Source: Polytrichum commune (Eukaryota; Streptophyta; Polytrichopsida; Polytrichales; Polytrichaceae). Taken from it: DNA of 64,000 nt. Shown here piece by piece: positions 8,030 to 26,015 of this stretch. The stretch covers positions 1,054,001-1,118,000 of the forward strand of contig OX485806.1 of assembly GCA_950295325.1 (NCBI GenBank). The letters run 5' to 3'. Both the position numbers and the translations under genes were made by a program. The notes beneath the pieces were generated by a model. The model did no database searches. It was not told the origin of the DNA and worked only from the letters and a program-made list of their open reading frames with translations. How positions within the stretch are numbered: position 1 is the first letter of the stretch; every line of letters begins with the position of its first letter.

Positions 8030-8895
8030 ATGGTAAGATATGTAAATGAGTGGTAAGGTATATGGGGATGAGACAAAAACTATCCAACATGTCATTGCTT
8101 GGCAGATTAAACGAAAACTATCCAACATCATGAGCTACACATGGACATTATGATCAATTTTTTTTTAATGTTGATGCAATTAATCATATTTAGGTATCAT
8201 GCTCATTTTTTAGATGGATTTTTGGAGAAACAAGTAAGAACATATTTTTGAGTGAAGTTATCAAAAGGGAAACTTAGCTGAGAGCAAGAGAGATCCAACG
8301 GTACGCTGCGAGGTGCAATAATGACTTCTAGCCAACATCTACATGTTTAGGTTTAGGTTTAGGTTTAGGTTGCAACATAAGCACTCTAGGAAACTAAATA
8401 ATTAATGACATTTTGAAACGGAGTCTGTGGGCCCCCAAGGTCATGCCATAAGGTTCATGTCATTGTTTGGTAGATAAAATAAAAAATATCCTACATGTCA
8501 TTGCCTTGTAAATCAAACAAAAACCGATTGTAAGATATGTAAATGAGTGGTAAGGCATTCGGGGATGAGACAAAAACTATTCAACATGTCATTGCTCAAT
8601 AGATAAAACAAAAACTATCCAACAAGTCGTTGTTTGGTAGATAAAACAAAAACTATCCAACATGTCATTGTTTGGTAGATTGAATAAAAACTATACAACA
8701 TGTCATTGCCTAGTAAATGAAACAAAAAACCGATGGTAAGGCATGTAAATGAGTGGTGAGGCATACAGGGATGGGACAAAAACTATTCAACATATCATTG
8801 CTCGGTGGATAAAACAAAAACTATCCAACAAGTCATTGTTTGGTAGATAAAATTAAACTATCCAACGTGTCATTGTGCGGTAAATAAAACAATGA
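8030..8895. repeat. Degenerate tandem array with higher-order period
   Basis: Units of roughly 40-55 bp built on the word ACAAAAACTATCCAACATGT followed by CATTGTTTGGTAGATAAA recur at about 8030-8135 and 8440-8895. A longer module that opens GGTAAGATATGTAAATGAGT recurs near 8030, 8531 and 8737, giving a higher-order period of about 205 bp in the second block. Sequence between the blocks (8140-8440) is unrelated and includes a short hexamer run. No open frame is conserved across units. Confidence 0.7.
8345..8370 (+). repeat. Short TTTAGG hexamer run (telomere-like)
   Basis: Four consecutive GTTTAG hexamers are present. The usual plant telomere unit is the heptamer TTTAGGG, so this is either a variant or a simple sequence repeat. 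It is too short to claim an interstitial telomere. Confidence 0.6.
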
Positions 8896-11856: not shown

Positions 11857-14573
11857 CTTGCATGATATAAAATGTGATTGATTAACACTTCAATATGAGT
11901 CACATTGCTCTATTTACGGTATTTAGTGTCACTTACACTATTGGAAGTACGCAATGCTATAACTATTATAGATCTCATTCTTTTTAATCACCAACAATCA
12001 ATTTGGTTGTTTGGACATTATAGAACATTAACATATTTACTTGGTCAAAACTTATGTTAATAGATACACATTATAACAATGTGTGACTCCAAATAGTAAG
12101 TGACAACCAACACCCTAAATGGTGTAGTGAGCACACGGAACGTGTAACATGAACACTAATATCAAGAAGTATCTTATTCAAACCACGTGCATTGAGTGTG
12201 CAAAGCATTTTTCACAACCCTATCTTAGCGGGTTTTCTACAATATCTACACGATGAAGACATTGAGACCGAAAAAATCAACCTTCCGGATTCTTAAAATA
12301 AAGTTAAAACTTCAAACAAAATCCCAAGATGAAGTCCTCCGTGTCATAGGGATTGATCTAAGTGAATTCACAATGACTTAGAATCCACACAACTTGTGTG
12401 TTCACTACAATTGCTCAAACGACTTTATATGTATATAAAGTGACAACGCCATCGTTTAGGATTATAACCACAAGGTTGGGGTGAATGAAGGATACTTCAC
12501 CCAAATCATAGTTGCAAGCTCATATGTGAATCACTTTTTCATGCTTTTGCAAAAATACGGTGGTGGGGGCGTAACCTTAGACTATTTTGAGGAGGCTTGG
12601 TTGTAAGGCACCTATTATGTTGCATGTTTGAGGCCCAAGTCCAATTATGTCTTAGTGGCTTTTCGGGTACACTTGCATTGAGAATATCGAAAGGTTTTGG
12701 GAATGTATCGACCATACTTCTATGTATATTGTCGTTCCAAAGTTCTCCAAAGTGCACGATTTGAAGGCCAATGTGGCCAACGATGTAGAGGAGTTTTTGG
12801 CATGCCTCTCACAAACCCAAATTGTGCTTTAACCCTTAAAGGTCAAAGTCATTTTCACATAGTAAGACAAATTCTTCGGTTTCATAACCAACCAAAGTTG
12901 TAACGTAAGTAAGTAAAAACTATGGGAAGCAAAGTTGTCACTGTTGGTTTAACCCCTAGCTTCTCAAGCAACCAACTTTTGGTTGATGGATGAGTTTTTC
13001 CCTACATTAATCCCACCTAACTCATTCATCTACAATCAAAATAATTATAAACATCAAGCCAACATGGATATCTACGCATAGACACATGAGCAGCGTAATT
13101 TGTAATTGATTAGAATGTGTAAAAATATGTCAAAGCGGGAAGTGATCGTGTTTTTGTTGTGTTGTGAGCTCATGTGAGGGTGTTGACTCCCATCAATAGT
13201 TGCCACTTCAATGCAAACTCTACACAAACATCAAAGATGTTCATTTGGTAAAAGTGAAATGTTATTTGGTGTTCATGTAGAAATGGCCTTTGTGCTAACA
13301 TCGACCGTTCCCATTTCCACATTTGGACATAAGGAATTCTTTGCATATACGTGGTTAGAAATATAGAATAAATTACATGCTCCAAATGCAAGGTGGGCAA
13401 CCTATTGCAATTGGCACATTGGCATGAGAATTTGTGGAGGTGCTCAATAATTCAGTTGTTCGCATCTAATGGATTGCACAAGCCATCTGCTTATTTTCCA
13501 GGTTAATTTGATTGGTCAAAAGTCTTTTAATGGGGATAAAACACGGAATTTTCTCGTGTACCACTTCCTTCAATTCTCATAATCTAAAAATTTTGAAGGT
13601 TATTTGAGCCCGTTTTCCTTCGTTATAGCTCATCTCTCATGTTTCAAGATCCTATGGACAAATCTCATTCTAACCTCAAAACTTGTCCATGTGAATTCCA
13701 CAACCACCATTGAGTGAGATGCACTCAAAACAACCCTTTCATGGGCTTGAGAAGTTAAGCATAAGGAATCATGCAACAAGTCTTCAATGTTTGTGTGTGT
13801 ATATATATATATATACACATACATTGTTCTCAAATAACTTGGTGAACTCATGCCCGCTCCATGGTAAGCTTTTAGAGCTCAAATTGAATAACATCATGCA
13901 TGCGGTGTCTTGCATAGGACATACAACGCATGCACCTATCTTGAATCACAACTTATACTGCATTTTTACACATGGGTACAAATTCAAGTATGAAATTTAC
14001 ACATTCAAATAACCCATTTTGGATCATCTACGATGTTTTCTTTGGAGACCATTAATACCCGGTTCAAACTAAAGATAACAAATGTGAATGGATTTGGGCA
14101 TGTGCTCGTGTAGGTTTTAGTTTGGTTATTGGACCTATGCGTATCTTGAAAGTTAACCCTATAATCACCCCAATAGGTGCATGCATCTAATGGTCCTTGT
14201 GATACCATAGACTCGGTTGGGCAATCATGTCGGCCCAAGCCTTGGAAGACATAAGTTGTATTTGACACGTCACCTGGTCATGGAGCCAACGAAAGACATG
14301 TAGATATTTCCCAAGCATACATGCCCCTACTCTAAGGATCGAGCCACAAGGACATGTCCACCCTTTTTTTTTAAACAAAAATGAAGGGTCCACGTCCACA
14401 TTGTACCCATCCAACAAACGGAAGGGTTGGCGACCTTGCCATTGGTACCCATCTCATAATTGTAGTGCTCAAGAATGGGCAGGCTTGGATTGTGGATGGG
14501 CGCCCTGATGATAATTGCCCACCCTACAACTTATTTGGATATTTGCCTCCCCTTCGTTCCTACCTCACATACT
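11857..14573. other. Intergenic DNA without recognisable genes
   Basis: About 2.7 kb of AT-rich sequence with scattered short frames, none of which shows family motifs or exon-like borders. It contains the small TG/TA microsatellite listed separately. No terminal repeats were found. Confidence 0.5.
13792..13824. repeat. (TG)n(TA)n compound microsatellite
   Basis: A TG run passes directly into seven AT dinucleotides and then ACACATACAT. Confidence 0.9.
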
Positions 14574-15024
14574 GCAGCTCTTTAGCAGTTTGGGCACCTT
14601 TTTGCCTAATAATTAATTAAAGTGTGAAAGTAAGTTAGGAAACCCATAAAATAATATTTTAGAATCAGGTAAATTAAAAAATTACAAGTTATATATTCAT
14701 CCACGTCGTTCTTGTAATTCATGGATGGTTCCCCTAATTTCATACATGGCATCTACGCTTGATCTAAACACCTCCCTTTACCAACATTCCTTACCCTAAA
14801 GTTTGTCTTTTACTTATATGTTAAGGTTTTGCTTGACAACATATTTTGCTTTGATTTGATGCTACTTTGTTGGGATTCATTGAATGTCACTTGCATTGTT
14901 GTAATTTTTTTGCACTCTTTGAATGTTATTTGTTTATTTATTTGACACTCAACGAAATTTATGTCCTAGAAATTTAGGCACCTTTAAAGTTAATTATTTT
15001 TATACCAAGAATGGACAAATGGGT
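14574..15024. mobile_element. Terminal-inverted-repeat element family B, uninterrupted copy
   Basis: It aligns with the two outer parts of the element at 24742-26015: first GCTAATAATTAATTAAAG-type sequence, then TAATTCATGGA, CCAACATTCCTTACC and CACTCTTTGAATGTTAT. Its length of about 450 bp equals that of the other copy minus its insertion (about 444 bp). The left end (GCAGCTCTTTAGCAGTTTGG) is a decayed version of the inverted repeat seen in that copy. The right end is too diverged to define exactly. It preserves the site where the other copy was interrupted. Confidence 0.65.
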
Positions 15025-20082: not shown

Positions 20083-21644
20083 CTAGCTTAATGGCACTTG
20101 CATCAGAGACTGGGACGAATCTGCAATATATGCAACAATCGAGATGACTTGAGGACCATACCTTAATGAATGCCTCGGGTATGATGAACCAAGCGGCATG
20201 TCATTGTACTGCAGTGGATCCACTTCCAAGCCATAGTCCATCAAAGGTCGCAACTCAAGCTCCTTGTCGTGCTCGAACACAAATTCTGGTATTTCTACTT
20301 GGCCCTTCTTGACATAGTCAACGAGGAATTCAAGCCGATTGATGTACACAACCTTTGAGTAAAAGCTGTATCACATATAAATGTCGGTGGTGGAAAACCC
20401 CATGTCAGCCACTCAAACCAATGGATTCTCTCCTGGCCTTACAAATCATAAGATAGTTCTTCAACTATAGACATGTCCATAATGGCAGAAAATTTTGAGT
20501 GTAGAATATTCAGCAAGCAGATGGCAAGAAAATTTGAAATGTGAGTAGCATGAGTTTCGTACCCCTCACTAAGGAAGAATCGACCAAGAGTGGCGATCAA
20601 CAATCTGGACCGCAAACCCGGGTGGAGAATGTAGACAGATTCAAGTCGTTGCTTCATCACTGTGGGCAGCGATTCGTAGATATCTCGGAGAGTTCGCATG
20701 CCTGGAGAGTTGTCGTTCCGTTGAACTGCTGTGTGGAAGTACATTATCACGAAAGGGCCTGGTTGTAACTCTTGCTGAAGCTTTTGTAGCACATATGCTT
20801 TTAATCTGCCTCCATCAATTACCGGTGCTGCACTGCACCATATGGTCCAACAGATGAACAAGGCTGCCTTGTGATTGACATATGTGTGAACAATTTACTC
20901 CTCTCATGTAATTCAGATCTCTCCCGCTTGAAAACACAAAAGAATTCAAAAGATACCAGACATCAAAATATTGAGACTACGCAACACGAGTGCATGATGC
21001 GTAAATGTCTAATGGTTTTCCATATGTTCTGATGTCTGATGTTGTGAATTCGTAGTGTTAAAAGTAAAAATTTGTGAAAGAAAGCATGACGATGTACTTC
21101 AAAGTAAATTGTAATAAAAGAAGCTTGGAACGGAGGTGAGAGGTTCAAAAGATAGCAGAACACCACATGATGAGACTATTAAGGATTACAGTTGACAATT
21201 CTTTATAATTACATGTTGATAACCTCTTGTGCTATTCTTGATGATGCTGTGTCTCTGCCTGCGTGCATTTTTATTCAATTCCAGTGTTCTTCAAAGTGCC
21301 CAGGATATGGAAGAGGAGTGTTTCGTACCAGGTAAAAACTTGCCAACAATTCTCACAATTTGGCGTCCCTTGACATCAAATCCCTCCCGGCGCAGAACCT
21401 CCAGCTGCTCCAAATCTGAGAAGTCGTCATCGCCACCACGCCCTCCAGCGCAATCCTCAAAATCACTGTCCGGCACCGAACTGTGAGTCGAGGTGAGGCC
21501 GAAAGAACGCGGCTCCACAACTAAGTCGGAAGCCAACACTATGAGCGATTGCTCCCCCTTCGCACCTCCGCTTTTGGAAGCTTTCTGGTTTCTGGCTTCC
21601 ACATCTAAGCCTACGGATGCCTCGTGGCCTGACATTGTGGCCAT
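20083..21644 (-). CDS. CRAL-TRIO (SEC14-like) domain protein, GDAP2 C-terminal type
   Basis: Three exons, 21329-21644, 20563-20827 and 20083-20365, join in frame across GT-AG introns and encode 287 residues ending in a TAG stop. Residues 1-75 are acidic and low-complexity. From about residue 80 the sequence is a CRAL-TRIO_2-type domain: EGFDVKGRQIVRIVGKFLPA, then LQPGPFVIMYFHTAVQRNDN, then YILHPGLRSRLLIATLGRFF, FYSKVVYINRLEFLVDYV and IPEFVFEHDKELELRPLMDY. The closest family I know is the small Arabidopsis SEC14-like protein At4g35750, which ends in the same FVxxHDxxLExRPMMDYG block; the same domain ends animal GDAP2. The fold binds lipids or small hydrophobic ligands; the ligand here is unknown. 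The first ATG of the frame at 21644 was chosen as start. The N-terminal extension is longer than in the Arabidopsis protein. Confidence 0.88.
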
Positions 21645-24741: not shown

Positions 24742-26015
24742 GTAGCTCTCTAGCAACTTGGGCACCTTTCTAGCTAATAATTAATTAAAGTGCAAAAGTA
24801 AGTTAGGCAACCCATAAAATAATATTCTAGTATTGGGCAGTTTCAAAAAGTAATTTAACATAAGTTAGACATTAACCCCTAAGTGCCCGAGCAACCATAT
24901 ATGGTTGATCAAAAATTTCGGCTCGTTTGTGTGTGGGCAGGTAAAATTCCTTTGACCACGTAAATTTTTTTGGCGGGCAGCATGGAAGGGCAACTTTTGG
25001 ATTGAGGCATTTTTGACCAAAAAGAGTAAATATTCGATTTTAGAGAGGGTCGCAAAGGCATATATGTCCGTGATGTAGGGAATGGGTGGAGAAAGTGCTT
25101 TACTATTTCCTCAATGTTTCAGCTAATTGGACTATTGTACTTGTTTTTGACATCCAAAGAGTTCTCATTATTCATTTCTTTTGAAAAGTGTCGTAGTGGA
25201 AAGACTAAAAAAATTCCGTATTTTTGACCGTTGAATATGAGTATTCACAATTACCAATGTGAAGTAATTTGCAATATCAAATCGTCAAGTGTTAAAATAA
25301 AGAAAATGCATTTCAAGAATTGCAAGGAGGATTGCGAAATGATTGGGATAGCTCTATATGCATACATAGGGTCTTTGGAATCACATTTTCGTATTCTTTC
25401 ACATGTTGGAGTTGTTCATGTCACCTCAAACTCCTAAAAATACTTATGAGCAAATCATACCAACATTGTGGGGAGGGGCAACATACAAAAAAAAGAATGT
25501 ATACATTTCTCTTGTTTGAATCTCACAACTCTTATGCAATCTCGGTCTCAAAATTGGTATGCATACTAATAAACAAGTTCTTTAAACATCTATACGGTTA
25601 GATTTTGGATAAAAGACAAATCCCTCCATTGGGGATTGTATTAAACCCATGCACATATTTCTTAGGAAAAGTGCATTCCGAAAGGCTTGGGCACTTAGGG
25701 GTTAATCCAAGTCATTTCTATAATTCATGGACGATTTTCCTAATTTCACCTATGGCGGTTACGATTAACCTAAACACTTCCCTTAACCAACATTCCTTAC
25801 CTTAAAGTTTGTCTTATACTTGTATGTCAGGGTTTTGCTTTGTGTGAGAGTTATACAAAGTGGTCTTTGTGACAGACTATGTTACTTGCATTATTGTGAT
25901 TTTAGGCACTCTTTGAATGTTATCTCTTTTCTTAGACACTCGACAAAATTAATTTCTCAGAAATTTAAGCACCTTCAAAATGAATTATTATCTGCCCAAG
26001 TTGCTAGAGAACTAC
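24742..26015. mobile_element. Terminal-inverted-repeat element family B, copy interrupted by a TTAA-flanked element
   Basis: The left end GTAGCTCTCTAGCAACTTGG (24742-24764 in full) and the reverse complement of 25993-26015 differ at one of 23 positions. Weaker inverted similarity continues inward around TAATAATTAATT. Flanking 9-mers CATACTAAT and GATATTATT agree at 6 of 9, so the target duplication and superfamily are uncertain. Removing the inner element leaves about 444 bp, matching the copy at 14574. No transposase is visible. Confidence 0.7.
24872..25705. mobile_element. piggyBac-like element (non-autonomous or remnant) with TTAA target site
   Basis: The left end reads TTAACCCCTAAGTGCCC and the right end GGGCACTTAGGGGTTAA, perfect inverted copies of each other. 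Similarity continues inward as GAGC versus AAGC. TTAA duplication plus a terminus starting CCC is diagnostic of the piggyBac superfamily. Just inside the left end is the perfect palindrome CAACCATATATGGTTG, of a type often seen in piggyBac-like subterminal DNA. The related repeat at 14574 shows the empty site, with TTCA where this copy has TTAA-element-TTAA. The 826-bp interior has no intact transposase. A short frame at 25605-25670 (RQIPPLGIVLNPC) is at most weakly reminiscent of one. Confidence 0.72.

Follow-up and report, generated by a model that had tools for sequence, protein, structure and literature searches.

A short non-autonomous piggyBac element, probably moved in trans, in the genome of a moss-like land plant

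Animal genome engineering relies heavily on piggyBac, a transposon known chiefly from animals, and native members of its superfamily seem little described from land plants. In a 64,000-nucleotide stretch of genomic DNA (the window), an earlier note had read the segment at 24872-25705, from its letters, as a piggyBac-like element with a TTAA target duplication in a plant genome. We asked whether that identity holds genome-wide, where a short element with hardly any coding capacity came from, which enzyme might move it, and how it entered a host repeat whose other copies, where read, show a different target. The segment is almost certainly a non-autonomous deletion derivative of a resident piggyBac family, presumably mobilised by a piggyBac transposase acting in trans.

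Results

Direct reading of 24872-25705 gives TTAA, 826 bp and a second TTAA, with perfect inverted ends (Table 1). The 17-bp end TTAACCCCTAAGTGCCC at 24872-24888 has its complement at 25689-25705, bearing out the earlier note, whose figure of 17 counts the TTAA; the inverted repeat proper, CCCCTAAGTGCCC, is 13 bp, and beyond one mismatch it extends to 21 bp. Short inverted repeats that adjoin TTAA and often start with CCC are a piggyBac feature, and the element has them. At up to three mismatches the end 17-mer finds three matches within the window, against 0.08 expected from shuffles, two of them the element's own exact ends and the third carrying three mismatches. The 834 bp that include both TTAAs hold 14 stops in frame 1 and a single stop-to-stop frame of at least 100 codons (25296-25598, 101 codons), for which no Pfam match was found.

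Table 1. Features of the element, its insertion site and the sibling repeat (window coordinates)
Feature	Position	Strand	Basis
Sibling host-repeat copy, empty site TTCA	14560..14834	+	blastn with joined flanks
Host repeat, left part	24743..24871	+	Joined-flank search; many scored matches start at joined-query position 21-22; edge approximate
Segment from full-length left end	24872..25068	+	91.4% to C7 element over 198 bp; 82.7% to C2, 85.3% to C3
Left TTAA target-site duplication	24872..24875	.	Direct reading; TTAA in 28/28 copies read
Non-autonomous piggyBac element, 826 bp, internal-deletion derivative	24876..25701	+	Letters, copies, full-length relatives
Left terminal inverted repeat CCCCTAAGTGCCC, 13 bp perfect, 17 bp with TTAA	24876..24888	+	Direct reading and copies
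16-bp palindrome CAACCATATATGGTTG, element bp 17-32; candidate site for a cysteine-rich domain (CRD) dimer	24892..24907	.	Letters; place compared with T. ni piggyBac (available part of PMC7351741)
Segment from full-length right end	25068..25705	+	95.5% to C7 element over 638 bp; 79% to C2 and C3
Right terminal inverted repeat	25689..25701	-	Direct reading and copies
Right TTAA target-site duplication	25702..25705	.	Direct reading and copies read
Host repeat, right part	25706..25875	+	Joined-flank search; runs to query end, edge approximate

The genome searched comprises 407.8 Mb in 64 contigs, with C1-C7 measuring 42-78 Mb each. Queried with the 834 bp, it returned 103 first-look candidates. 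Of the 40 taken on to scoring, 40/40 aligned end to end at 97-100%. Letter-by-letter reading covered 28 of these 40, and in 28/28 the copy stops at TTAA on both sides; boundaries lying elsewhere had been named beforehand as a possible refutation. Genome-wide, the exact end 17-mer occurs 76 times in forward and 75 times in reverse orientation, against 0 for a reversed control, and the 21-base end pattern, at up to two mismatches, 124 and 137 times, again against 0. The 28 copies differ pairwise by 1.3% on average (range 0-2.5%), with 10 identical pairs; C1 and C5 each hold one copy that matches the window copy letter for letter. Because their flanks differ, except for a few (L006, L013 and L028) that lie in one host repeat family, recent transposition is favoured over segmental duplication. 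Two loci hold longer relatives with exact ends, L072:400-1736 (1,337 bp) and L073:196-1586 (1,391 bp); about 0.5 kb splits the 834-bp sequence near element base 600 in the first and near base 285 in the second.

The search for longer copies that the earlier note had proposed led to full-length relatives with the same ends, encoding a transposase of the piggyBac superfamily (PF13843). Elements on C2 (7054196-7060175, 5,980 bp) and C3 (11872451-11878518, 6,068 bp) enclose the transposase between the family ends, with TTAA outside; a third on C7 (441585-448905, 7,321 bp), likewise with TTAA-flanked family ends, is the closest match to the window element. Bases 1-197 of the latter map to the left ends of the C2 and C3 elements and bases 197-834 to their right ends, the two parts meeting at a deletion junction at about 25068 with an overlap of about 1 nt. 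Since the ends match both outer ends of these transposase-carrying elements (C2, C3 and C7), we read the window element, on sequence comparison, as a C7-subfamily member from whose interior about 6.5 kb has been deleted; it has the structure expected of a MITE formed by internal deletion, with both ends common to a longer element and the coding part missing.

The site that received the element lies in a host repeat. The earlier note had stated that the flanks, joined at one TTAA, match a sibling repeat near 14697 base for base, with TTCA there. A related empty site with TTCA does exist (joined flanks against 14560-14834: blastn, 79.9% over 283 bp), and the alignment is gap-free at the junction, TTAA standing against TTCA; because of small gaps lying about 12-40 bp left of the junction, it is not base for base. 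Genome-wide, the joined flanks gave 754 first-look candidates, of which 40 were scored at 84-92%, each spanning the junction, and in the 20 best of these 40 the target reads TTCA 19 times, TTCG once and TTAA never.

Because TTAA is thus unique to the window copy among the repeats read, either this copy had acquired a private TTAA by mutation before insertion, or the transposon wrote it. On the second account the element would have inserted at TTCA, a target that is non-canonical for piggyBac, with the overhanging TTAA of the element replacing target bases on both sides. The sibling and 20 further empty copies, all TTCA or TTCG, speak for such an event, and mutations at non-canonical piggyBac sites have been reported. 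The available part of PMC7351741 cuts both ways: the excised piggyBac carries TTAA overhangs once its hairpins have been opened, but the overhang is not needed for TTAA target choice in vitro. Against insertion at TTCA, the 40 scored repeats are 8-16% off the joined flanks, so that a private C-to-A change beforehand would come easily, and among hundreds of repeat copies a transposon would choose one having TTAA; the 28/28 TTAA sites do not distinguish prior mutation from a donor-carried TTAA. Elsewhere, one repeat family was hit at the same TTAA by both L013 and L028, and in a related repeat around L006 that TTAA is unoccupied. We consider insertion at TTCA unlikely and favour a TTAA that arose by mutation before the element arrived.

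The family to which this element belongs has candidate sources of enzyme. PF13843 (DDE_Tnp_1_7) has 118 matches in the genome, against none in 14 control genomes, and at five close loci (L029-L033) the transposase frame is open over 564 codons (562 residues from the first Met). All five have a family left and right end, spaced 5,979-6,384 bp apart; the three of them other than the C2 and C3 elements, known from their ends rather than their whole sequence, have spacings of 5,979, 6,384 and 6,068 bp. Upstream of the transposase frame, the C2 and C3 elements have a long open frame in a different phase, and the transposase region of both probably contains an intron. The C2 protein matches PF13843 at 270.8 bits (E = 2.5e-80), its sole Pfam match up to E = 0.1; in the PDB it has only two matches, 9c0f ('piggyBat transposase', 5.2e-24) and 6x67 ('Transposase', 5.4e-23), the latter of which we take to be T. 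ni piggyBac. Its Asp motifs, VDEM (D228), MDNF (D315) and GVDVADQ (D432, D435), fall where the 9c0f and 6x67 chains have DE, DN and GVD..DQ. Near the C terminus, five Cys columns and one His column are invariant in six aligned transposases; they may mark the cysteine-rich zinc-binding domain that the superfamily has there. A scan of viral contigs found no relative of the transposase.

The five transposase copies nearest the C7 element are 90-100% identical in DNA where aligned; two are partial, all have stops, and no open full-length transposase of the C7 subfamily was found among them. The open frames are carried by the sister (C2/C3) subfamily, which is 80% like the C7 type and only 79-85% like the window element's ends; in five pairs compared, these frames show 0-7 synonymous differences. 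Because the five C7-subfamily copies carry stops, we infer the present source of enzyme: the likeliest reading is that the sister subfamily supplies it and cross-mobilises the element, although an unseen or lost C7-type copy may do so instead.

An old, dead family whose members merely drift would be another way to read a short element of this kind, and the stops that interrupt many of the 118 PF13843 matches fit it. It is hard to reconcile, however, with 28 short copies diverged by 0-2.5%, identical ones of which sit on different chromosomes, or with five transposase frames that are still open, and we regard it as improbable; by the same sequence evidence, movement of the non-autonomous piggyBac element was probably recent or is continuing.

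A piggyBac look-alike from another superfamily, one whose target is TTAA or shorter (Kolobok, Sola3, PIF/Harbinger or Tc1/mariner), is conceivable in so far as TTAA by itself does not identify a superfamily, Kolobok and Sola3 being TTAA users and a palindromic TTAA alone being unable to tell a 4-bp from a 2-bp duplication, but this is extremely improbable given that the ends and the 197 and 638 bp are common to elements with a PF13843 transposase and that PF13843 is the one Pfam family detected in the C2 protein. Kolobok or Sola3 membership was rejected on that ground, and relatives with the same ends but a foreign transposase, which the earlier note had named as refuting evidence, were looked for and not found among these elements. 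Its piggyBac-like identification is upheld by the TTAA-flanked copies together with the relatives that encode the PF13843 transposase.

A second lineage of piggyBac-derived sequences occurs in the same genome, at L034:1207-3999 (-), L035:121-2922 (+) and L038:1210-4065 (-). Its open frames of 931-952 codons are 39-40% identical to the first lineage over the transposase, with pairwise dN/dS of 0.13-0.14. With about 2.5 kb added on each side, a criterion-based search found no TTAA-ended inverted repeat around L034 and L038; these sequences may be either domesticated genes or elements with other ends.

Just inside the left end lies the palindrome that the earlier note had pointed out, CAACCATATATGGTTG, unchanged in 28/28 copies read (bp are counted from the first base after TTAA). 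When the first 116 bp were shuffled 20,000 times by mononucleotide, 17 of the shuffles contained a perfect palindrome of at least 16 bp. At the left ends of the C2, C3 and C7 elements the palindrome is CGACCATATATGGTCG, with CGACC..GGTCG where the window element has CAACC..GGTTG; both arms have changed and the palindrome has stayed perfect, a paired change that may represent one event rather than several. The left end also has a G in the window element where the left ends of C2, C3 and C7 have C. No counterpart was found at the right end of the window element or of the C2, C3 and C7 elements: right ends hold 8-bp palindromes only, at bp 21-28 (C2, C3) and bp 25-32 (C7), and that of the window element has no palindrome of at least 8 bp before bp 136. 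In T. ni piggyBac, the available part of PMC7351741 describes a repeat at one end, palindromic and lying within bp 17-33, that a CRD dimer binds in an asymmetric complex, while that of PMC10140906 reports an internal repeat near both ends. By analogy, the left-end palindrome may bind a dimer of the transposase cysteine-rich domain, and its likeness to T. ni in place and form is the best mechanistic clue in this locus.

Discussion

The ends, the TTAA flanks, the deletion structure, the many near-identical copies and the full-length relatives with open frames are observed; from them we propose the following course of events. About 6.5 kb would have been lost inside a C7-subfamily element, leaving about 197 bp of its left and 638 bp of its right end. 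A piggyBac transposase acting in trans would recognise the CCCCTAAGTGCCC ends, its cysteine-rich domain would also engage the left-end palindrome, and the enzyme would cut the element out, with the seamless return to TTAA that is typical of the superfamily, and insert it at TTAA. Going further, the system might still be working, with the open-frame subfamily cross-mobilising its sister's derivative and occasionally writing its own TTAA into TTCA, a combined reading that we hold only tentatively and think somewhat doubtful as a whole.

The superfamily is already known; the host is unusual, and so is the completeness of the evidence. The short inverted repeats of T. ni piggyBac begin with CCC, as do those of the present element, and piggyBat has an animal host, against the plant host here. 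The likeness to T. ni piggyBac (PDB 6x67/6x68) extends to a PF13843-type transposase with Asp motifs, to the TTAA target and, in the available part of PMC7351741, to a palindromic repeat whose start lies 17 bp in from one end. Unlike it, the present elements have a long upstream frame, a plant host and no matching right-end palindrome that we could see; their full-length forms measure 6.0-7.3 kb, compared with 2.47 kb (from the portion of PMC10140906 at hand), and their transposase is distant (E = 5.4e-23). piggyBat (PDB 9c0f) is the best solved relative of the present transposase (E = 5.2e-24), yet distant in sequence as well. Of four animal piggyBac end motifs named in the accessible part of PMC10813416, three begin with CCC.

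Occurrence of piggyBac in plants has been stated in print, and one review, in its accessible portion, counts piggyBac among plant superfamilies. PiggyBac is listed among seven MITE superfamilies of angiosperms in the section available of another review text (PMC10004981); the plant MITEs filed there as PiggyBac are also short and non-autonomous, whereas the element described here comes with full-length, transposase-bearing relatives and has a moss-like host. For the fern Ceratopteris richardii, likewise a seedless land plant, the available part of PMC6890710 has PiggyBac as a repeat-class entry, with 1230 and 122417 in a repeat table, which we read as copies and bases. In titles and abstract openings of the open-access literature, no native moss piggyBac was found as a subject, a weak negative given that only these parts of the papers bear on it. 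A plant genome that combines a young deletion derivative with matching ends and five elements whose frames are open would allow a plant-native piggyBac enzyme to be tested and would give the history of the superfamily in plants a firmer footing.

Host and surrounding sequence

The plant host that the earlier note had assumed agrees with the LEAFY-type exons, present at three loci of the genome, two of which (L074 and L075) were compared with PDB chains 4bhk and 2vy1, presumably LEAFY of the moss Physcomitrella and of Arabidopsis, respectively. L074 shares 83/103 residues with 4bhk and 77/103 with 2vy1, L075 90/103 and 74/103. At two sites that we take to decide DNA specificity, L075 has Asp and Cys, a pair we believe typical of mosses, and L074 has His and Arg. 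Judged by these exons, the host is a land plant and moss-like.

Within the window, Rfam and tRNA scans gave no matches, and Pfam matches of two frames to Erf4 and nec1 lay far below cut-off and were dropped. A tandem array with a 206-bp unit in 2.1 copies occupies 8456-8889 and overlaps rows of 38-bp period. About 4 kb from the insertion, at 20442-20894 (-), a frame encodes a divergent CRAL/TRIO domain (E = 1.3e-19).
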